Assembly: GCA_026390695.1 (NCBI GenBank)
Contig: JAPLFL010000016.1
Location: forward strand, 1-58,182
Direction: 5' to 3'
Length of the DNA: 58,182 bases
DNA from: Candidatus Kapaibacterium sp.
GTDB lineage: Bacteria > Bacteroidota > Ignavibacteria > Kapaibacteriales > UBA2268
The position numbers were made by a program, and so were the translations under genes. Positions 9,291 through 57,490 of the stretch are shown in pieces. The notes below the pieces were generated by a model. It searched no databases and was not told where the DNA came from. It saw only the letters and a program-made list of their open reading frames with translations. Within the stretch, counting starts at the first letter, position 1; every line of letters starts with the position of its first letter.

Positions 9291-9376
9291 GTCAGACGAG
9301 AACGTCTGACCTACTGTGCAGTAAAACAGGTGAGAACGTCTGACCTACTGTGTAGTAAAACAGCCGAGAACGTCTG
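9291..9376. repeat. 34-bp tandem repeat containing a perfect palindrome
   Basis: Units start at 9298 and 9332 and a partial one at 9366; each begins GAGAACGTCTGACCTACTGT. The first two full units differ at three positions. The left boundary forms the palindrome GTCAGACG-AGAA-CGTCTGAC at 9291-9310 (8-bp arms, 4-base loop). Confidence 0.75.
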
Positions 9377-9443
9377 TTTAGTTGTAAATATTTATTAGTT
9401 ATTATATAATTTCATTGTGTTAGATATATGAGATAAATGCTTC

Positions 9444-12975: not shown

Positions 12976-13040
12976 GAGGATTAGAGGATCAAGTTAATTA
13001 TAGTTCTTTGAAAGAAGAAACACACCACCTAAGTGGCTAA

Positions 13041-13138
13041 CTCAGAAGCCTCATTTCTGTCATTCCTGCGAATGCAGGAATCCCCTAAAGTGGCTATGGA
13101 AGGAGATTCCAGCATTCGTAGGAATGACATTTCGGAAT
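13041..13138. repeat. Dispersed hairpin element, copy 1
   Basis: GTCATTCCTGCGAATGCAGG from 13059 pairs over about 24 bases with the segment ending GGAATGAC at 13138 (GATTCCAGCATTCG). The loop reads TAAAGTGGCTATGGAAGG. A degenerate left outer arm, ACTCAGAAGCC, lies at 13041. It sits between etfA and the EMO-like gene. Confidence 0.75.
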
Positions 13139-13262
13139 TATATTCCTTATCCTTGCATCATTGGAGTTAGGGGGTGTGTAAATAATAACACATAAGTTTA
13201 TTTTTTATGATAATTTTCAGAATACTAAATATTTAATTTCATTAACTAATTTATTAAAAATC

Positions 13263-15248
13263 ATGGATCCTGTAGAATTAAAAATATTGTCAATCCCCGG
13301 CTATTTTTATTTATGGCTGCTAACGATTATATCACTAACCTTTTTTGTTACAAGAACATATAAAATTATCAATATCTTAAAAAAGGCTAAACCCGAAAAC
13401 CGGCTTGATAACTACTCAAAAAGAACCTATAATTTTATTAGATATGTTTTAGGGCAAAAAAAACTCTTCGGGGAGCGTTCAATCGGGCTGCCACATTTTT
13501 TCTTTTTCTGGGGATTTGTCTTTTATGCAACTACATTCTGGTGGAATTTAATCCGCGGCTTAGTACCCGTTATTCCTATCCCTTATGCAGATGAGGTTGG
13601 AATTGTCGGATTAATTCTCGAAATTTCCGGTGTACTGGTATTAATTTCAATAATAATTGCCGTAATACGACGGACTTTCTTTCCTCCACCGCATCTTCAG
13701 AAATCAAGAGATGCAGTAATTATATTAAGTTTAATTACAATTTTGATGGTTACTTTGCTCATTGCTCAGGGAGCCAAAGGCACAATCGAACAATCATCAC
13801 TGAGTCCTGCAGGCACAGTAATAGCAACATTCTTTGCAGGTATGCCTATAAGCGGAGCACATAATTTATACTCGGCGATGTGGTGGATTCATATAATCGC
13901 CGTTCTTTTCTTTTTGGCATATATACCATATTCCAAGCATTTGCATTTATTAACATCACCGGTTAATGCATTTCTTCTCAATGATGATTCACCGGCAAAC
14001 CTGACAATAAAAGGCGGAACCGAAGAAATAACTCAAGGGTCATCAAAATGGGATGAATTTACCTGGAAACAGGTTTTCCAAACTTTGACCTGTGCTGAAT
14101 GCGGTCGATGTGACCGGGTATGTCCGGCATTAAATTCAGGATATAAGCTCTCTCCTCGTTCAATTCTCCATGAAATGAAAATGCACCTTTACGAAGAGGC
14201 TTTCACAAAAGAAATTGATAAAATTGAAGTTAAGTCGCTTATCGGTGGATATATAAGCCATGAAGAGCTTTGGCAATGTACAACATGTATGGCTTGCATG
14301 GAGCGTTGTCCGGTATTAAATGAACATGTTACCGCTATAGTTCAGATGCGGCGTTATCTTGTAAGTCAGGGAGATGTCGAAGCAACAGTTCAGGATATGC
14401 TTCAGAAACTCACAAGATATGGAAATTCATTCGGACAATCCGATCGTAACCGCGCAAAATGGACTAATGGATTAGATTTCAAAATCAAAGATGCCCGCAA
14501 AGAAGAAGTTGAATATCTATGGTTCACAGGTGATTATTCAGCCTTCGATCAAAGAGTACAGAACCTTACTCGATCAACAGCAAAAATTTTTCAGGCATCA
14601 GGTTTAGATTTTGGTATCCTTTATGAAGCCGAAAAGAACTCAGGAAATGATGTTCGAAGAATAGGCGAAGAAGGTCTATTTGAGGTTCTGAAAGACAAAA
14701 ATATCGCAGCACTTGGGAAGGCAAAATTTAAAATAATTGTCACAACCGATCCACATACATATAATACTCTTAAAAATGAGTATAATCTTGATGAAGCATT
14801 GGGAGCGCACATTGAAGTTCTTCATTATACTGAGCTTATTGACGAATTAATCTTAAATAGAAAAATTGAAATAAAGAACAAACTTAATATTAATGCAACT
14901 TATCATGATCCATGCTATCTCGGAAGGTACAATGGAATATTCGATCCACCACGAAGAATATTAAAAGCAATAGGAGTAAATTTAATCGAAATGCCAAGAA
15001 ATAAGCAAAATAGCTATTGCTGTGGAGCCGGTGGTGGAAAAATATGGATGGAAGACAAAACTAAAGTCATGGAAAGACCAGCAGAAAATAGGATAAATGA
15101 AGCGGTTGCCTTGAAAAATGTTAAAACCTTCATCGTTGCCTGTCCCAAAGATATTGCAATGTTTCAGGATGCAATCAAAACTGTGGGCTGTGAAGAATCA
15201 ATGACTGTCAAAGATATTTCCGAGTTGGTTCTTGAAGTAATAGGTTGA
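13263..15248 (+). CDS. Membrane FeS oxidoreductase, EMO-like (NarI-type domain + 2 x 4Fe-4S + CCG domain)
   Basis: 661 residues. The first 250 or so contain about five membrane helices with a NarI/cytochrome-b-like arrangement (LPHFFFFWGFVFYATTFWWN, ISGAHNLYSAMWWIHIIAVL). Then come two cubane ligand sets, CAECGRCDRVCP and CTTCMACMERCP, and a CCG domain with CYLGRYNGIFDPPRR and YCCGAGGGKIW. An earlier CCG half (YLWFTGDYSAF, EKNSGNDVRRIGEEG) has lost its cysteines. Family knowledge: proteins of this build next to etfAB pass ETF electrons to menaquinone (EMO). Placed after etfA and before the HdrBC-like and hdrA genes, it is the likely membrane exit or entry of the module. Confidence 0.85.
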   Translation: MDPVELKILSIPGYFYLWLLTIISLTFFVTRTYKIINILKKAKPENRLDNYSKRTYNFIRYVLGQKKLFGERSIGLPHFFFFWGFVFYATTFWWNLIRGLVPVIPIPYADEVGIVGLILEISGVLVLISIIIAVIRRTFFPPPHLQKSRDAVIILSLITILMVTLLIAQGAKGTIEQSSLSPAGTVIATFFAGMPISGAHNLYSAMWWIHIIAVLFFLAYIPYSKHLHLLTSPVNAFLLNDDSPANLTIKGGTEEITQGSSKWDEFTWKQVFQTLTCAECGRCDRVCPALNSGYKLSPRSILHEMKMHLYEEAFTKEIDKIEVKSLIGGYISHEELWQCTTCMACMERCPVLNEHVTAIVQMRRYLVSQGDVEATVQDMLQKLTRYGNSFGQSDRNRAKWTNGLDFKIKDARKEEVEYLWFTGDYSAFDQRVQNLTRSTAKIFQASGLDFGILYEAEKNSGNDVRRIGEEGLFEVLKDKNIAALGKAKFKIIVTTDPHTYNTLKNEYNLDEALGAHIEVLHYTELIDELILNRKIEIKNKLNINATYHDPCYLGRYNGIFDPPRRILKAIGVNLIEMPRNKQNSYCCGAGGGKIWMEDKTKVMERPAENRINEAVALKNVKTFIVACPKDIAMFQDAIKTVGCEESMTVKDISELVLEVIG

Positions 15249-21812: not shown

Positions 21813-21936
21813 GTGTGTGAAAACGAGGAAATTCCCATGGAATGTCATTCCCGCTCATGCGGAAATTTCCTTCCAGTGCCAATCAGGGGATTCCTGCATG
21901 CGCAGGAATGACAAGAAATTGCAGTTTTCACACAAG
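21813..21936. repeat. Dispersed hairpin element, copy 2b (type II outer arms)
   Basis: Outer arms GTGTGTGAAAAC (21813-21824) and GTTTTCACAC (21924-21933) enclose a core running from GTCATTCCCGCTCATGCGG at 21844 to GGGGATTCCTGCATGCGCAG and GAATGAC at 21912. The core matches copies 1 and 3, while the arms differ from the CTCAAAAG type. Confidence 0.75.
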
Positions 21937-22039
21937 CTCATTTATAGGAATGACAATTCCTTGATTAATTCCCCTAACTTAGTTACATTACCCTTCGGGG
22001 AGGCTTAGGGAGGGGTTCTTATAAAAAAGTAGGATAGTT

Positions 22040-23302: not shown

Positions 23303-23487
23303 GGCAGCCTCAAAAGTCTCGTTTCTGTCACTTGTGGGAAAGAGACAGTGTGAAAACTGCAATTTCTTGTCATTCCTGCGCATTCAGGAATCCCCTGATT
23401 GGTACTGGAAGGGGATTCCCGCATGCGCGGGAATGACAGATACGTTATTATTTCGAGTTTTCACACAGTCTCATGTGCGGGAATGAC
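23303..23487. repeat. Dispersed hairpin element, copy 3, apparently nested in another copy
   Basis: Core 23368-23436: GTCATTCCTGCGCATTCAGG pairs with the arm ending GCGGGAATGAC. Type II outer arms GACAGTGTGAAAACT (23343-23357) and AGTTTTCACACAGTC (23456-23470) enclose it. Flanks on both sides are halves of a second element: GCCTCAAAAGTCTCGTTTCT and GTCACTTGTGGGAAA on the left, TCATGTGCGGGAATGAC on the right. I infer a nested insertion. Confidence 0.7.
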
Positions 23488-23921: not shown

Positions 23922-24047
23922 GTCTGACTCAAAAGTTGAATATTTGTTAAAAATGTCATTCCCGGGCATGCGGGAATCCGCTACCAGTGCCACTTTTGGA
24001 GATTCATACACTGGCATCAATGAAAGAATCGAAACTTTTGAGACAGC
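23922..24047. repeat. Dispersed hairpin element, copy 4 (type I outer arms)
   Basis: Outer arms GTCTGACTCAAAAGTT (23922-23937) and AACTTTTGAGACAGC (24033-24047) enclose a core beginning GTCATTCCCGGGCATGCGGG at 23955 and ending in a degenerate CACTGGCATCAATGAAAG. It fills the hypA-hypB gap. Confidence 0.7.
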
Positions 24048-25216: not shown

Positions 25217-27691
25217 ATGTCAATATTAAGGATAAATATTAAAATTCAGGGAACTGTTCAAGGGGTTGGCTTTCGTCCGTTTATTTTTAGGCTTGCTAAT
25301 GAATTGAATCTTAAAGGATTTATAAATAATTCATCTTCCGGGGTGACAATTGAGGCAGAGGGCGAAAAATCGGAATTGGATAATTTTATTTATCGAATAA
25401 AATCAGATAAACCTAATTTATCTAAATTAAGCAGTTTTGATTTTCATTATCTTGATCTGGTTGGATATAATAACTTTACTATCAACCAATCAGAGATATC
25501 AGAATCTATTAATGCCCATGTTTTGCCAGATATTGCAGTTTGTTCTGATTGTTTAAAAGAAATGAATGATCCTGATAACCGGCGCTTTCGGTATCCTTTT
25601 ATAAATTGTACTAATTGTGGACCCAGATTTTCAATTATTGAAGCTCTTCCGTATGACCGTCCGAATACTTCGATGAAATTTTTTGCTATGTGCCCGGATT
25701 GTAGAAGAGAATATGAGAATCCTTATGACCGACGTTATCATGCCCAGCCAATAGCCTGTCCCAATTGCGGCCCGTATATCGAATTATGGGATTCTGAAGG
25801 TAAATTTATCTCTTTTTATGAACAGGCATTAGATGATGCTTGCAAAATTATTTTAGAAGGTAACATTCTTGCTTTAAAAGGTATCGGAGGATTTCAATTT
25901 ATATGTGATGCAAGAAATAATGTAGCTGTTAAGAATCTGAGGGACAGAAAGCGTAGGGAAGAAAAACCCTTAGCTATTATGTGCCCGGATTTGGAATCAG
26001 CAAAATCTCTTTGTGAAATTTCTGATATAGAAGAAACTCTGTTATTTTCTCCTGAATCACCTATTGTTTTGCTTAAAAGAAATAGGCAAGCTAATTTTTC
26101 GGCAGATTATTTATCAGATTTTATTGCACCAGATAATCCCTATCTTGGGATTATGCTTCCATATTCTCCTCTTCATCATTTGTTATTAAATATATTAAAA
26201 ATACCGATAGTGGCAACAAGTGGTAATTTATCCGAAGAACCAATAAGTATTAATGAATATGATGCAGTTACAAGATTAGCTGGAATTGCCGATTATTTTT
26301 TGGTTAATAATAGACCAATTGTTCGGCATGTTGATGATTCAATTGTAAGAATTATTGCTGGAAGAAAGACAATCATTCGACGTGCAAGAGGTTATGCGCC
26401 CTTGCCGGTAATTATAGATGCACCAGATATTCCTGACGATGAAGGATTATACATTGATGAAAAAAGAGATTCCATCATTCACAAAAATGGCAATGATAAA
26501 GATTCCAGAATTCACAAGAACGATAATCAAAAAAGTATATTAGCTGTGGGTGCTCATCTGAAAAATTCAATAGCTCTTAAAAAAGGGAAGAATGTATTTA
26601 TTAGCCAACATATCGGAGATTTGTCCACTAATGAAGCAAATAGCGCCTTTATAAAGGTTATAAATGATTTTGAAAAATTATATGATACGTCTGCTGATAA
26701 AATTATTTGCGATTTACATCCTGAGTATCTTTCAACAAAATATTCCAAAGGTCTGAACAAAAATTTGATACAGGTCCAGCATCATGTTGCCCATGTTTTG
26801 TCATGCAGATTAGAAAACAGTGTCAGCGGCAAAGCGCTCGGAGTAGCCTGGGATGGAACAGGATTAGGCTTTGACGGTTCAATCTGGGGCGGAGAATTTT
26901 TCATTTCTGATGATTCAACTATCGAACATATTTGCCAGTTTCGCAGGTTCCCACTGCCAGGCGGCGAGATTGCCATTAAAGAACCTCGGCGTTCGGCTGC
27001 GGGTATGCTTTATCAAATGATGAACGGACATTTATTTGATTCCGAGAATATCGCATTACTTAATAATTTTTCCAATGAAGAAAGATCAATTTTATATACT
27101 ATATTAAATAAGCAAATAAATTGCCCAAAAACATCAAGTTTAGGGCGAATATTTGATACCATAGCTTCACTTTTGAATTTAAAACAAAAATCGGGTTATG
27201 AAGGTCAGGCAGCAATGTCAGTTGAATTTATTGCCGATCCTGAGGAACAAGGGTCGTATCCAGTGATTATAAAACAAGAAATTCCCAATGATGAAATGGA
27301 AGATTCCTGCATTAGCAACAATGACAAGACTGGCAAATTAAAGAATATTCTGATTATTGACTGGGAGCCAATGCTTAATCTGGTTCTGTCAGACATTTCA
27401 GAGGAATTACCAACAGCAAAAATAGCTGCAAAATTTCATAATTATCTATCTGATACAATTGTTTATTTAGCTGAAATGCTTAAATTGCAAAAAGTAATTT
27501 TATCGGGAGGTTGCTTTCAAAATAAAATTTTAACAGAACAAACAATAATTAAATTATTAAATAAAGGGATTCAGCCTTATTGGCATCAGCTTGTTCCTAC
27601 AAATGACGGCGGAATAGCATTAGGACAGATTAATTTCGAATTACAAATGAAAGCTATTAACCCTTTCCAGACATTAACAATTAACCATTAA
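25217..27691 (+). CDS. hypF: Carbamoyltransferase HypF with two inserted low-complexity segments
   Basis: 824 residues from ATG 25217; an in-frame upstream start at 25163 would add 18 residues without family support. HypF makes thiocarbamoylated HypE for the cyanide ligands. Acylphosphatase domain (VQGVGFRPFIFRLA), zinc fingers (CSDCLKEMNDP, CTNCGPRFS, CPDCRREYENP, CPNCGPY), YrdC domain (ALKGIGGFQFICDARN, SPIVLLKR, VATSGNLSEEPI), RRARGYAPLPV, and Kae1-like domain (QHHVAHVLSC, AWDGTGLGFDGSIWGGEF, GGCFQNKIL). Two stretches are longer than in the family and resemble the dispersed element core: 26468-26533 and 27302-27330. No hypE is found in the window. Confidence 0.93.
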   Translation: MSILRINIKIQGTVQGVGFRPFIFRLANELNLKGFINNSSSGVTIEAEGEKSELDNFIYRIKSDKPNLSKLSSFDFHYLDLVGYNNFTINQSEISESINAHVLPDIAVCSDCLKEMNDPDNRRFRYPFINCTNCGPRFSIIEALPYDRPNTSMKFFAMCPDCRREYENPYDRRYHAQPIACPNCGPYIELWDSEGKFISFYEQALDDACKIILEGNILALKGIGGFQFICDARNNVAVKNLRDRKRREEKPLAIMCPDLESAKSLCEISDIEETLLFSPESPIVLLKRNRQANFSADYLSDFIAPDNPYLGIMLPYSPLHHLLLNILKIPIVATSGNLSEEPISINEYDAVTRLAGIADYFLVNNRPIVRHVDDSIVRIIAGRKTIIRRARGYAPLPVIIDAPDIPDDEGLYIDEKRDSIIHKNGNDKDSRIHKNDNQKSILAVGAHLKNSIALKKGKNVFISQHIGDLSTNEANSAFIKVINDFEKLYDTSADKIICDLHPEYLSTKYSKGLNKNLIQVQHHVAHVLSCRLENSVSGKALGVAWDGTGLGFDGSIWGGEFFISDDSTIEHICQFRRFPLPGGEIAIKEPRRSAAGMLYQMMNGHLFDSENIALLNNFSNEERSILYTILNKQINCPKTSSLGRIFDTIASLLNLKQKSGYEGQAAMSVEFIADPEEQGSYPVIIKQEIPNDEMEDSCISNNDKTGKLKNILIIDWEPMLNLVLSDISEELPTAKIAAKFHNYLSDTIVYLAEMLKLQKVILSGGCFQNKILTEQTIIKLLNKGIQPYWHQLVPTNDGGIALGQINFELQMKAINPFQTLTINH
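26468..26533 (+). repeat. Two tandem element-like segments inside hypF
   Basis: Two 33-base units start at 26468 and 26501, GATTCCATCATTCACAAAAA and GATTCCAGAATTCACAAGAA. By eye about 18 of the first 24 bases of each match the right arm of copy 1 (GATTCCAGCATTCG). Both read in frame as D-S-x-I-H-K-N. They lie in the linker between RRARGYAPLPV and ILAVGAHLKN, which is normally short. Confidence 0.5.
27302..27330 (+). repeat. Element-like segment inside hypF C-terminal domain
   Basis: GATTCCTGCATTAGCAACAA followed by TGACAAGAC matches the right arm of copy 2b (GATTCCTGCATGCGCAGGAA, TGACAAGAA) at about 24 of 28 positions by eye. It encodes D-S-C-I-S-N-N-D-K-T, in the same frame as the two units at 26468, within a loop longer than in other HypF proteins. 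Confidence 0.5.
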
Positions 27692-29057: not shown

Positions 29058-29105
29058 TATCAAGTCAATAATTAAGCAAGAATAATTGTGCTACATAGAG
29101 TAGAA

Positions 29106-29188
29106 GGCTGTCTCAAAAGCCACATATTTAACAAAAATGTCAATCCTGCATTCGCAGGAATGACAGAAATAAGGCTTTTGAGACAGTC
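29106..29188. terminator. Dispersed hairpin element, copy 5, in terminator position
   Basis: Outer arms GGCTGTCTCAAAAGCC (29106-29121) and GGCTTTTGAGACAGTC (29173-29188) enclose the inner palindrome GTCAATCCTGCATTCGCAGG running to GAATGAC at 29164. It lies between convergent hypD and the helicase gene. This best-preserved copy shows the full structure: inner core, AT spacers, outer arms; it probably also stops transcription both ways. Confidence 0.65.
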
Positions 29189-29203
29189 TCTTTGAAAGAA
29201 GAA

Positions 29204-33605: not shown

Positions 33606-33654
33606 TTATGAGTTATGAAAAAGATGGTGGAGCGTATGCAATGATTAATTCCAA

Positions 33655-33773
33655 TTCTTATTCTTATTCTTATTCTTATTCTTATTCTTATTCTTATTCT
33701 TATTCTTATTCTTATTCTTATTCCTTTTTCTTTCTACCTTCTACCTTCTACCTTCTACTTTCTACCTTCTATA
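33655..33773. repeat. Two adjacent microsatellites
   Basis: (TTCTTA) repeats 11 times without error at 33655-33720. It is followed after 11 bases by TTCTACC heptads (five units, one with a T for C, 33732-33766) and a partial TTCTATA. The two lie between the DUF494 gene and tRNA-Arg. A plus-strand reading frame spanning them (MSYEKDGGAYAM then repeated SY) is only a by-product. Confidence 0.9.
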
Positions 33774-50746: not shown

Positions 50747-50986
50747 CGCAGTAGCAGCCAGTTTCAGAGCATGTAAGTTTGTCGGGTGTCTTGATAGTAA
50801 GTGGATAAAGTTACAGAAACAATTCCAATGGACAAAACGTTCTTTGAAAATTTGAAAAATCAACAGGTTAAATTGAATTGTCGGGTGAGCGGGAAAAAAG
50901 CATTAATTGAGCTCGACAAGAAAAAAAATAGAAAATCGAAAGAATTTTCTTGAATAGAAGCCACAAATAGGTTAATTTTGTAGCGT
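50747..50986 (+). promoter_or_regulatory. CRISPR leader
   Basis: 240 bases between cas2 and the first repeat without a gene. TTGTCGGGTG occurs twice, at 50779-50788 and 50878-50887. A TTG (50950-50952)-N20-TAATTTTG (50973-50980) promoter ends it, so the transcription start would fall at about the first base of repeat 1. Confidence 0.8.
50950..50980 (+). promoter_or_regulatory. Promoter of the CRISPR array
   Basis: TTG at 50950-50952, 20 bases, TAATTTTG at 50973-50980, the same spacing as the cas promoter. The start is expected around 50987, the first base of repeat 1. Confidence 0.65.
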
Positions 50987-53900
50987 CTTTTAATCGAACT
51001 ATTGTAGAATTGAAATAACTCAATGCTACCTACGCCTAATGCTGTGCTTGTCTTTTAATCGAACTATTGTAGAATTGAAATCCGATATGGCTGCGCCGCT
51101 GTTTTCTATTGTGTTCACACTTTTAATCGAACTATTGTAGAATTGAAATCCGTTACCAATAATTTTATCGGGGTCGTGATTTAATAACTTTTAATCGAAC
51201 TATTGTAGAATTGAAATGTGAATTAAAATTTGTTATATCTGTATAGGCGTGTGACTTTTAATCGAACTATTGTAGAATTGAAATGAATACCTTCAAATAT
51301 TTGGACTGCTATTATTAGCTTTTAATCGAACTATTGTAGAATTGAAATACAATAGCTTGGTATAAAGCTATGGATAGATATTATCTTTTAATCGAACTAT
51401 TGTAGAATTGAAATAACACTTGACCTGAACATCACAGAAGGGCAGCACAAACTTTTAATCGAACTATTGTAGAATTGAAATACAGGTAAGAAATTTATTG
51501 TAGATTTTAATAAAGGACTTTTAATCGAACTATTGTAGAATTGAAATGAAGATAATGTATAAGCAAATACATACGGTTTATTACTTTTAATCGAACTATT
51601 GTAGAATTGAAATTCATCATCATTAATAAAATCAGGCATTTATGAACCCTTTTAATCGAACTATTGTAGAATTGAAATGAGTTCCCTGGCCCTATTGTTT
51701 TTATTATCTGTCCGCTTTTAATCGAACTATTGTAGAATTGAAATAAATTCAATAATGAAGGCAAAATGATTTTCAATTGCTTTTAATCGAACTATTGTAG
51801 AATTGAAATGCTGTTGTCGTAATCAATGGTAAATTGGCAGTTGCCTTTTAATCGAACTATTGTAGAATTGAAATCTGTCTTTTATCGTCTTACCACCAAC
51901 TCCATTGAACTTTTAATCGAACTATTGTAGAATTGAAATCAAGAAATCAAAGTACAGTCTTTAGTGACAGCGGCTTTTAATCGAACTATTGTAGAATTGA
52001 AATCTTGGATCAACATACAATCAATCTGCAGGCGATTCTCTTTTAATCGAACTATTGTAGAATTGAAATACGCTTGACCTGAACATCACAGAAGGGCAGC
52101 ACAACTTTTAATCGAACTATTGTAGAATTGAAATTTTTGGGAGTGGGAGTGTAGCGTCAAAAGAATTGACTTTTAATCGAACTAGTGTAGAATTGAAATT
52201 ATTGAAGGTGCAATAAGAACCTGTAGTGAATGTGCACTTTTAATCGAACTATTGTAGAATTGAAATATCAAAATTATAATAGGATCACCTAAGCCCTATG
52301 CGCTTTTAATCGAACTATTGTAGAATTGAAATACGAGACGCTGTACTTGTCCCGGTTATGCAGGCGGCCTTTTAATCGAACTATTGTAGAATTGAAATTC
52401 TAATAAAAGATGCTTGCTGTTTATCCTTATCGACTTTTAATCGAACTATTGTAGAATTGAAATTATGTACCAGCTAAAGGCGGGCTACAATAACTATTCA
52501 CTTTTAATCGAACTATTGTAGAATTGAAATGAAAAAGTGTTCACAAATTCGGCAGTTGAATAACTTCTTTTAATCGAACTATTGTAGAATTGAAATCAGA
52601 TATTAGCATGGTACTGGCGCTGTTTTCCGTCTTTTAATCGAACTATTGTAGAATTGAAATCTCGTAAGACAAAGTTTGCCTGATAAATAGTTGTTACTTT
52701 TAATCGAACTATTGTAGAATTGAAATGAGGTTGATCCATTTTGACCAACTGATTCAGTAAGCTTTTAATCGAACTATTGTAGAATTGAAATCTCATTATA
52801 AATCTCCCCTACCCCTCTTTTCTAAGCTTTTAATCGAACTATTGTAGAATTGAAATTAAGGATGGGTGACAAATCAGATGCGCGCTTTGATCTTTTAATC
52901 GAACTATTGTAGAATTGAAATATCCCTTAGATATTGTGATTTTTGTTTGCAAGTTAATCTTTTAATCGAACTATTGTAGAATTGAAATGAAGGATAAGTC
53001 ATTGACCCGCCACCGCCACCAGCCCTTTTAATCGAACTATTGTAGAATTGAAATAATAATATTTTAAATAATCATTAAAGGACTAACACAACTTTTAATC
53101 GAACTATTGTAGAATTGAAATTAGGACAGGAACGGAGGGATAAATGAATAATATAAACTTTTAATCGAACTATTGTAGAATTGAAATCGGGGTTAAAACA
53201 AAACTAAGCGGCTAATACTTGGCTTTTAATCGAACTATTGTAGAATTGAAATGAAAACAAAGCGGTTCCGGCGGAGATTTTATCTTCCTTTTAATCGAAC
53301 TATTGTAGAATTGAAATATTCCATCAAGCGCTATTAAACCGATTTCGGTTAAACTTTTAATCGAACTATTGTAGAATTGAAATGAGTTCAAGAACGGGTT
53401 ATTGAAAAGTTAGATAAAACTTTTAATCGAACTATTGTAGAATTGAAATTTTAAAAGCCCTTTAGATGCTCAGAGTAAGACTATTCTTTTAATCGAACTA
53501 TTGTAGAATTGAAATCTTCGTAGATTAAATTCATTCAAAAAACTTAGAAGCTTTTAATCGAACTATTGTAGAATTGAAATGATGTTATGGAACAGCAAAA
53601 CAACGAGCCGATTAAACTTTTAATCGAACTATTGTAGAATTGAAATGATTTATCTAAATCGAGCGCAGATACCGCTATATTAGCTTTTAATCGAACTATT
53701 GTAGAATTGAAATTGGTTTGGAGCCGTTGACAAGCTATTGTTGTCTTACCTTTTAATCGAACTATTGTAGAATTGAAATAACTCCGGCACATCCACTCCC
53801 CAATCACTCAACAACTTTTAATCGAACTATTGTAGAATTGAAATATTTTTATGGCAGTAGCAGCGATGGCAGGGGCTTTAACTTTTAATCGAACTATTGT

Positions 53901-56900
53901 AGAATTGAAATATTTTTATGGCAGTAGCAGCGATGGCAGGGGCTTTAACTTTTAATCGAACTATTGTAGAATTGAAATGTTTACGGGACGATTCCAATAA
54001 CATTAGATTTACCTTTTAATCGAACTATTGTAGAATTGAAATGCATATAATACGCCTACGGTTTTGCCATAAGACGGTGGCTTTTAATCGAACTATTGTA
54101 GAATTGAAATATTTTTATGGCAGTAGCAGCGATGGCAGGGGCTTTAACTTTTAATCGAACTATTGTAGAATTGAAATATATTTTACAAGGCGGAAGTATT
54201 GCAATTATTTAACTTTTAATCGAACTATTGTAGAATTGAAATCAAGTTTAGTTATGACCACAAGCGAAATAATCAGTTCTTTTAATCGAACTATTGTAGA
54301 ATTGAAATATTTTTAAAATTCGATATAATAAAAGGGAATTTACTTTTAATCGAACTATTGTAGAATTGAAATTCGTTTGTTACTTTGTATTCGATGTATG
54401 AGTTTGTCTTTTAATCGAACTATTGTAGAATTGAAATATAAAATGATCCATGTCCCATCTCACCGGTCTAATTTCTTTTAATCGAACTATTGTAGAATTG
54501 AAATCACGAAGTGGTTATTTATATAGTAATAATTGAGGTTTCTTTTAATCGAACTATTGTAGAATTGAAATACTAATTTGAAATTTTCTTTCATAAACTG
54601 ATGAAGGACTTTTAATCGAACTATTGTAGAATTGAAATGCGGCAACATTATTAAGAGCATTAAGAGCATTAATCTTTTAATCGAACTATTGTAGAATTGA
54701 AATATTGTTTCACTACCGACTAATTTGAAATTTTCTTTCTTTTAATCGAACTATTGTAGAATTGAAATACTTTTAGATCGTGCTTCTTTACATATTCGTC
54801 TTGTCTTTTAATCGAACTATTGTAGAATTGAAATATCATTAACTTTTGTAAGTTATATCGGTACTGAATCTTTTAATCGAACTATTGTAGAATTGAAATG
54901 CCTTTTGTGCACCTCGGTTAGTTGCTCTTCCAACCTTTTAATCGAACTATTGTAGAATTGAAATGCTGGAAGGTCATCTAAAGCGTGCAGATTCTGTTAT
55001 CTTTTAATCGAACTATTGTAGAATTGAAATTCGATGGAGCGGAATATAATTTTGCTTCTTTTACGCTTTTAATCGAACTATTGTAGAATTGAAATTACTG
55101 TGTTCGTATCTGCGAAATCTTTTCTTTTTTCCTTTTAATCGAACTATTGTAGAATTGAAATCTGGATGATGCTAAAAAAGCGATCATGGACGCAGAGAAA
55201 CTTTTAATCGAACTATTGTAGAATTGAAATCAAACAAAAAAGGAGGCATAATTTAATCGAACTATTGTAGAATTGAAATGATGAAGTTCCCTTTTAAAAA
55301 CAAATAAAGAGGTATCTTTTAATCGAACTATTGTAGAATTGAAATGTAAATGATGTCATTTCGTCTATATAATCATTCACTTTTAATCGAACTATTGTAG
55401 AATTGAAATTAAACTCCTCTGCACAGGCTTGTTTCGTGCACTTTACTTTTAATCGAACTATTGTAGAATTGAAATTCTGATAAAAGACGCTTGCTGTTTA
55501 TCCTTATCGAACTTTTAATCGAACTATTGTAGAATTGAAATTTTTTACGTTTTACATTATCAGATATTCTTTTTCTCTTTTAATCGAACTATTGTAGAAT
55601 TGAAATGAGATAAATGATATCCCGTTTGGTGATGATTATTTACTTTTAATCGAACTATTGTAGAATTGAAATCACAATAGCACCGCTTGCATAATACCAC
55701 TCACACACTTTTAATCGAACTATTGTAGAATTGAAATAAGGAGATAAAGGAGCAGACGGGACAGGTACCAACGACTTTTAATCGAACTATTGTAGAATTG
55801 AAATTTTGAAGTGGTTGAACGCAGAAACAGTTTACAATTACTTTTAATCGAACTATTGTAGAATTGAAATAACGAATACCAATTCGAGCACTCAGCTTTT
55901 ATTTGCTTTTAATCGAACTATTGTAGAATTGAAATAGGACATAACTCTCATATTAACTTTGAAGAATATGCTTTTAATCGAACTATTGTAGAATTGAAAT
56001 AGCGAACGATGCTGGGATTAGTTTAAACTATTCTTTCTTTTAATCGAACTATTGTAGAATTGAAATGCAGGTATCACGATAAACAGTGACACTACTGACA
56101 TCGGCTTTTAATCGAACTATTGTAGAATTGAAATAGAATTGCCTGTGTTGCAGGATCAATACCAGTTGGTCTTTTAATCGAACTATTGTAGAATTGAAAT
56201 CTGAGATAATATCTAAAAGCCCTAAACTCACCTTGACTTTTAATCGAACTATTGTAGAATTGAAATAAATCATGTTCGCAAGCAGCGTAACCATCTGCGA
56301 ATCTTTTAATCGAACTATTGTAGAATTGAAATTTCAATTTAGCAATTACACGATCCTGTGAGGCAATACTTTTAATCGAACTATTGTAGAATTGAAATAG
56401 CAAATACTCAGGGTCTAACAATTCATCATCCTGACTTTTAATCGAACTATTGTAGAATTGAAATAATATTGGCTGCTTTAGGCTTGGAGGTGCTTTTTTC
56501 GACTTTTAATCGAACTATTGTAGAATTGAAATTCCGCAACAGGTACGGCTCTTTAATGTTTTCAACTCTTTTAATCGAACTATTGTAGAATTGAAATTAA
56601 AGTACGATCCATATTCGGTGAAAAAGAGTTCTCACTTTTAATCGAACTATTGTAGAATTGAAATAGAGGAAGAAGATAAGTACAGAAGCGGGCACGCAGA
56701 CTTTTAATCGAACTATTGTAGAATTGAAATTCGATAGACTTGCTGAATTTGGAGAAAAGAAGTTTGGCTTTTAATCGAACTATTGTAGAATTGAAATAGA
56801 AATAGATTACGCTAAACAGAAACAGGCAATTGACTTTTAATCGAACTATTGTAGAATTGAAATGGGTAATTTTTTGCTGGCTCTGTTAGATTGCGAAGCC

Positions 56901-57456
56901 TTTTAATCGAACTATTGTAGAATTGAAATCCGTAAATTGAGAGTGCTCGTGAAACAAGTTCCGGCCTTTTAATCGAACTATTGTAGAATTGAAATTAGAT
57001 TCTCCTTTTTGAATAAATTTAATTGTTTGATCTTTTAATCGAACTATTGTAGAATTGAAATGCAATTTAGGGGGACACGATGGATGCAGCACAGAAGACT
57101 TTTAATCGAACTATTGTAGAATTGAAATCGAATAGCAGCTTCGGTTTGCTTTCTCCATTTTTCCACTTTTAATCGAACTATTGTAGAATTGAAATTTGTA
57201 TAATACAATTCTGGCTTGTAAATTATAACCGCTTTTAATCGAACTATTGTAGAATTGAAATAGCGATACGGCAGCTCCACCAACTGCATCTTTTGCCTTT
57301 TAATCGAACTATTGTAGAATTGAAATAAAAGAAACACTCTTTCGACGGCAAAGTCTTTGCTCTTTTAATCGAACTATTGTAGAATTGAAATAGAAATTGT
57401 CTTATGAAAACCGGCATCGGTATGTCCTTTTAATCGAACTATTGTAGAATTGAAAT
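50987..57456 (+). CRISPR. Type I-B CRISPR array, 99 repeats
   Basis: 30-base repeat CTTTTAATCGAACTATTGTA followed by GAATTGAAAT; I counted 99 by hand (98 spacers), first at 50987-51016, last at 57427-57456. Spacers are mostly 34-38 bases. The 3-prime end ATTGAAAT is the usual I-B handle. Variants I found: an A-to-G-like change (ACTAGTG) in the repeat at 52170 and a damaged 5-prime end in the one at 55250. Orientation (leader, cas2 on the left) is plus. It is the adaptive memory used by the cas genes upstream. Confidence 0.97.
53845..54147 (+). repeat. Spacer present three times
   Basis: The same 37-base spacer (begins ATTTTTATGGCAGTAGCAGC) fills 53845-53881, 53912-53948 and 54111-54147; two other spacers separate the second and third copies. 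Confidence 0.95.
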
Positions 57457-57490
57457 ATGGTTATCAAGTATTCATTTCAGAATTACTATT

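Follow-up and report, generated by a model that had tools for sequence, protein, structure and literature searches.

Three short segments of the hypF gene of Candidatus Kapaibacterium sp. are copies of a repeat dispersed through its genome. We consider it likely, at a probability of roughly 0.87, that they are decayed REP copies of the CGTC/TGTC type, produced by a selfish REP dimer that inserts widely and whose frame-keeping linker inserts survive and then decay. The gene occupies positions 25217-27691 (forward strand) of the window, the whole stretch of 58,182 nucleotides that was analysed. Its 824-residue product, the carbamoyltransferase HypF, matched TIGR00143 at 792.7 bits (E 2.9e-238; cutoff 466.1) and all HypF domains of Pfam were present (HypF_C_2, Sua5_yciO_yrdC, zf-HYPF, HypF_C and Acylphosphatase). 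HypF serves in [NiFe]-hydrogenase maturation; the preliminary description of this DNA called it an essential maturation enzyme, but it is not known as an essential enzyme of the cell.

Insert 1 comprises two relics of the right arm of the repeat, both placed in family D8: the first at 26468-26500 (+; residues 418-428, DSIIHKNGNDK; 16.7 bits) and the second, 33 nt downstream, at 26501-26533 (+; residues 429-439, DSRIHKNDNQK; 12.4 bits). Insert 2 carries one right-arm relic at 27302-27330 (+; DSCISNNDK, from residue 696; 27.4 bits). Over 28 nt, each of the two units of insert 1 is identical to the reference copy at 19 positions (68%) and the unit at 27302 at 24 (86%), the value that had been counted by eye. 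A repeat search made without prior knowledge grouped all three with intergenic copies in one family, whose other members are the hairpin arms at 13105, 21889, 23414 and 29141 and one site, at 13802, that falls within a different ORF. That ORF (13263-15248) scored at most 3.4 bits and we took the site as chance. The three hypF segments all lie in the sense orientation, share one frame and begin Asp-Ser. These results confirm the initial observation that they resemble the right arm in a single frame, and they support the view that a dispersed hairpin element entered hypF in frame.

Scores were obtained with an arm profile of 32 columns, for which 845 kb of genome sequence, hypF being left out, supplied 124 arm sites. 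With 2,000 column-permuted profiles the three highest scores in hypF were at most 7.4, -3.5 and -10.6 bits respectively, and 2,000 codon-order shuffles of the gene gave a best score of 11.0 bits. When both strands of an enlarged sample of 1,232,577 bases (∼27% of the genome) were scanned, the reversed profile reached a maximum of 1.6 bits, and across 60 permuted profiles the maximum over the whole sample was 20.3 bits. Judged by this sample-wide maximum, 27302 alone is significant genome-wide, and 26468 and 26501 are significant within hypF only. The case for these two weaker units rests on their lying in the same gene, as a tandem pair that keeps the frame and occupies a stretch missing from relatives.

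We aligned HypF with 12 homologues, six from 59 related genomes and six from named genomes, among which a Chlorobiota MAG was the most similar. Both insert stretches were absent from all 12. The first linker measures 45 residues here and about 11-18 in the relatives by automatic count (L034, short by eye, stands outside this count), and the second loop is likewise longer than in the aligned relatives, in agreement with the original impression of unusually long loops. The arm profile scored at best 0.3 bits in the 12 homologous hypF genes and -21.4 bits in their linker regions. Both checks put forward in the preliminary description, a comparison of scores with randomized sequence and a search for the extra residues in relatives, thus spoke for the element. 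Counting against an insertion is the HKND motif of the second unit, which recurs where the linker ends in L032, the closest relative. The 3′ edge of that unit is accordingly uncertain, and residues 434-439 also align with the solved HypF structure 3vth. Two relatives have unrelated long stretches of their own, one (in L065) located downstream of the first linker and the other (in L037) within the second loop, indicating that these places tolerate extra residues. With identities of about 57% at most, the HypF relatives allow neither a clean empty site nor a target duplication to be read. One aligned relative, G014, has 126 arm copies genome-wide; its second hypF (contig C50) was left out of the alignment, and the two match blocks of that gene also break at 401|438.

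In the alignment to 3vth, residues 401-433 of the present HypF form an extra stretch between the adjoining chain residues 394 and 395. The first unit lies within this gap, whereas the second straddles its end. AlphaFold2 modelling from a seven-sequence alignment gave a mean pLDDT of 58 and a pTM of 0.56, with pLDDT below 50 at residues 694-708, around insert 2, and at residues 333-450, so the model is uninformative on insert 1. Support for the proposal that both inserts sit in surface loops is therefore indirect: insert 1 falls at the junction of two 3vth alignment blocks (394|395), and the model is too poor to bear on the question.

No left arm was clearly recognizable in hypF. The best site in reverse orientation, at 26420 upstream of insert 1, scored -5.0 bits, a value reached by 4.2% of permuted profiles, and we do not claim it as a left-arm relic. 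Insertion of a full dimer into hypF would thus be proposed by analogy. Folding also set the hypF segments apart from intergenic copies: both hypF stretches folded no better than shuffled sequence (z 0.79 and -0.47), while 21843-21914 (-34.7 kcal/mol, z -5.95) and 29100-29195 (-44.2 kcal/mol, z -8.62) folded strongly. This fits a release of the hypF copies from the hairpin constraint.

The genome (4,633,311 bases in 129 contigs) held 503 arm matches at up to three mismatches and none to the reversed pattern; related arms were present in 14 of the 59 related genomes. By eye, a typical copy reads TGTC-ATTCCTGC-GNAT-GCAGGAAT-CCC, with a stem of 8 bp whose first A and T are complementary and a loop of 4 nt (ATTCCTGC-GNAT-GCAGGAAT). 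Copies mostly start with TGTC and end with GACA. The unpaired tail is mostly CCC or CTC by eye; under the published rule most tails, though not all, fit CCA (PMC3733652). Neighbouring non-genic arms less than 60 nt apart formed 55 pairs with tags out (head-head), 4 with tags in and 6 head-tail. The 55 head-head dimers measured 54, 70, 71, 72 and 73 nt in 1, 2, 29, 19 and 4 cases. A terminal-repeat-like flank of the GTCTCAAAAG or GTGTGAAAAC type was found on at least one side of 42 of these 55, versus one of the five genic dimers in the sample.

Within the window, intergenic copies occur at 13031-13145 (inverted arms; families I2, I3, I6, D8 and D9), 21843-21955 (a TGTC-tagged head-head dimer at the start, followed by a TTTTCACAC-type flank; I1), 23326-23438 (86% complementary to the preceding copy; I1), 23938-24047 (ends CTCAAAAG and CTTTTGAGACAG; I2 and I4) and 29106-29192 (one TGTC hairpin within GGCTGTCTCAAAAGCC and GGCTTTTGAGACAGTC terminal inverted repeats; D8 and I3). 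At 29106-29192, 13031-13145 and 23938-24047 the REP hairpins sit inside longer elements whose ends are of the GTCTCAAAAG or GTGTGAAAAC type, so that these copies resemble MITEs with a REP core. Repeats of other kinds are also present. A large CRISPR array at about 50982-57460 has about 70 copies of the 30-bp repeat CTTTTAATCGAACTATTGTAGAATTGAAAT, mostly 64-68 bp apart, and contains near-identical blocks at 53815, 53882 and 54081 (97-99% identical). At about 9293-9380, two tandem 34-nt copies of CAGACGAGAACGTCTGACCTACTGTGCAGTAAAA (91% identical; a small palindrome lies in the unit) are followed by a partial third, and at 33648-33771 a simple tandem tract of ATTCTT precedes repeats of the CTTCTACC type.

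The element has entered further genes. Of the 223 distinct sites in the sample that scored 6 bits or more, 33 fell within ORFs of at least 150 residues; as such ORFs cover 83% of the bases, this is a strong depletion. A site above 20.3 bits was found in 8 of 676 ORFs of at least 200 residues. Two of these were set aside and six genes kept: hypF, an SbcD/Mre11-like nuclease gene, nadE, the acetoacetate-CoA ligase gene (AacS), a glutathionylspermidine-synthase-like (GspS-like) gene and a GT4 glycosyltransferase gene on contig C53. Protein queries added valS and a glycosyltransferase gene on contig C25. The profile scan suggested earlier, run here on ∼27% of the genome and combined with targeted searches, thus yielded seven more conserved genes with in-frame copies, and the six genes from the sample suggest of the order of ten to twenty-odd per genome. 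In the peptide search of the whole genome, hypF, the sense frame of the GspS-like gene and the C53 gene were not among the best matches listed. nadE and valS are genes of the essential kind.

The consensus peptide of the genic copies is VIPAxAGIP...GDSCIRRND. The SbcD/Mre11-like gene has three GDSCIRRNDSQ units and nadE at least five plus an N run; tandem units are spaced 42 nt apart in both genes and 33 nt in insert 1 of hypF. Ranked by arm score, the genes form a graded series, from near-perfect dimers (the SbcD-like gene and the C25 glycosyltransferase) and tandem growth (nadE) to partial decay (the C53 glycosyltransferase) and the near-erased relics of hypF. The insert was absent from all aligned relatives of AacS (9/9; weaker acyl-CoA-ligase paralogues left out), the SbcD-like protein (3/3 with both protein halves aligned, from eight genomes with some match) and the GspS-like protein (5/5), and NadE was compared with one, poorly alignable relative. 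For valS and both glycosyltransferases the insert was placed by profile or solved-structure matches on either side. In valS (L198:3433-6279, reverse strand) it falls between parts matching residues 595 and 606 of 1gax, between the tRNA-synt_1 and Anticodon_1 domains. In the glycosyltransferases (L110:6517-7749, reverse strand, and L216:1049-2485, forward strand) it separates the N-terminal from the C-terminal domain match, which suggests that inserts survived more than once, in two different proteins, at sites of one kind. Just before its REP dimer, valS has a second foreign-looking stretch, HPLPLLTKEGKEE, and the AacS of G014 (L132) has a similar stretch of its own, HPLIPSQEG; the two possibly represent another dispersed repeat that enters proteins.

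Several candidates were dropped. In C15:169102-170040, for which no family was found, the arms (51.0 and 32.1 bits) precede what by eye is an apparent signal-peptide start. C57:13908-14663 is a repetitive ORF whose arms, close to the C-terminal end, read in the other frame, and no family reaches its cutoff; if it is a real gene, it is an exception to the one-frame rule. At C37:57379, upstream of a gene that we take to be gpsA-like, the frame crosses stops. Five ORFs of at least 200 residues each had one site, scoring 6.3-16.5 bits and thus less than the permutation maximum. Outside conserved genes, arm units also form tandem arrays at L200 (C115), L204 (C98) and C57:14471-14663; they read VIPANAGIPLKKIT or LFSHSLMRRNDRKR, and one is broken by an N run.

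In all eight conserved genes the element is read in one frame, giving Asp-Ser-Cys (DSC) in the consensus. A dimer was recognizable in seven of them, with a core of 71 nt in six and 74 nt in one, all of length 2 modulo 3, a class that accounts for 29 of the 55 non-genic dimers. The chance of seven such lengths, (29/55)^7, is ∼0.011, or ∼0.04 for the five genes from the frame-neutral scan alone. The DSC reading makes up 74 of 162 open frames of non-genic dimers, so its use in all seven genic dimers has a chance of ∼0.004 by simple product and ∼0.02 for the five dimer genes of the frame-neutral scan; valS and the C25 gene had come from protein queries in the DSC frame, which favours that frame. 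Both strands of the 29 dimers of 71 nt provided 58 frame tests. Frame 0 was closed in all 58, frame 1, used by the genic copies and reading VIPA...DSC, was open in 38, and frame 2, reading SFLR...IPAxAGM, was open in 48. Over all length classes DSC readings were more hydrophilic than IPAxAGM readings (mean GRAVY -0.46 versus -0.14).

We suggest that what inserts is a head-head dimer about 71 nt long. Being nearly palindromic, it offers the same frames in either orientation; in the 71-nt class one of these is closed by a stop and another reads as the fairly hydrophilic consensus peptide. Dimers would insert widely, presumably by transposition, and the core may do so without terminal-repeat-like flanks, given their rarity on genic dimers. 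An insert would be lost where it stopped or shifted a needed gene, while those that keep the frame in linkers would survive as extra, translated and probably neutral loops, the filtering taking place after insertion. Right arms may then sometimes multiply in tandem. Finally, once the hairpin is no longer needed, a copy would drift at the DNA level with its frame still open, the stage at which we would place the hypF copies. A stronger and doubtful version is that the REP is adapted in frame to invading proteins: 71-nt-class dimers, with a frame that is open and fairly hydrophilic in either orientation, would persist in conserved genes in the numbers estimated above, supply interdomain loops and then tandem 14-residue repeats, even in NadE and ValS.

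Asp/Ser/Asn/Lys-rich linkers in an AT-rich genome might resemble the arm by chance, and the modest identity of the two insert 1 units and the weak single sites in five other ORFs are what such a resemblance would look like. Nevertheless, none of the 60 permuted profiles equalled the score of 27302 anywhere in the 1.23 Mb sample, which refutes chance for this segment. Moreover, 2,000 permutations came nowhere near giving three sites as good as those of hypF, the sites coincide with stretches missing from relatives, and chance resemblance appears to us very improbable. That the frame has stayed open in a HypF with every Pfam domain, and is the same in eight conserved genes, could instead mean that the inserts or their RNA hairpins were domesticated for use by HypF or its mRNA. 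We think this very unlikely: neither hypF stretch folds better than shuffles, aligned relatives manage without the inserts, and related peptides occur in eight proteins that mostly belong to unrelated families, which speaks against a specific role.

The opposite direction of spread, outward from a repeat that arose within a gene, could draw on the tandem units within nadE and the SbcD-like gene, but we find it barely credible. Related arms are present in the related genomes counted above, and when seven chosen relatives were searched with the peptide query, which covers one frame only, the one match to fall in a frame 200 residues or longer (G014:C59, 292 residues) was weak (E 0.18) and crossed a TGA. 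The terminal-repeat-like flanks, common on non-genic dimers and rare on genic ones, also speak against it. We therefore retain the reading that the hypF segments are decayed copies of an inserted REP. On this reading, in-frame REP invasion, for which Rickettsia is the best-known case, extends to Candidatus Kapaibacterium sp., and the graded series within one genome opens to testing the way in which a selfish repeat turns into ordinary protein sequence. For annotators it is a warning that odd loops with VIPAxAGIP or GDSCIRRND may be repeat-derived.

The element probably belongs with the CGTC/TGTC REPs, as judged by described anatomy rather than by a sequence match to a published consensus. CGTC REPs were described from five phyla, Chlorobi and Bacteroidetes included (PMC3733652). 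In family CGTC-1 an 8-bp stem encloses a 4-nt loop and the terminal CGTC is often TGTC; dimers are predominantly head-head with tags outside and can sit inside longer palindromes (PMC3733652). Over half of intragenic CGTC REPs are dimers or groups, encoding 20-30 residues, and many lie in genes of DNA synthesis or repair; the passages of that paper drawn on here report no dedicated transposase as known (PMC3733652). Our element shares with CGTC-1 the TGTC tag, the stem and loop sizes, the head-head dimers and the intragenic copies. It differs in its single reading frame and length class, in the tandem units of nadE and the SbcD-like gene and in the decay seen in hypF. In-frame intragenic REPs are thus already known, and the new part is the single-frame and length-class pattern, which is sharper than in those passages. 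Among the matches listed in a literature search with most subscription journals outside its scope, no title or abstract opening concerned this lineage or hypF.

The resemblance to MITEs is confined to the terminal-repeat-like flanks of most non-genic dimers, which genic dimers mostly lack. Neisseria dRS3 is of the same REP class (CGTC-1) but clusters in large intergenic regions, and in-frame use is not stated in the passages drawn on here (PMC3733652). The closest parallel is with the Rickettsia palindromic elements (RPEs), which are likewise palindromic repeats lying in frame in unrelated proteins (PMC3733652, PMC10969869), their fusions with proteins being summarized in a MITE review (PMC10969869). 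As in RPE-like behaviour, the inserts here are open, in frame and absent from orthologues (HypF, AacS, the SbcD-like and GspS-like proteins, and valS judged against 1gax). RPEs differ in host lineage, in their length of about 150 bp and in forming ten families (PMC10969869), RPE-1 being termed longer (PMC3733652). The preliminary description held that the present element would be of a different family from those of Rickettsia. This is probably wrong, on a likeness drawn from descriptions and not from Rickettsia sequences: the anatomy is that of the CGTC/TGTC REPs, and in R. conorii RPE-6 has been equated with CGTC-1 and RPE-4 with CGTC-4 (PMC3733652).
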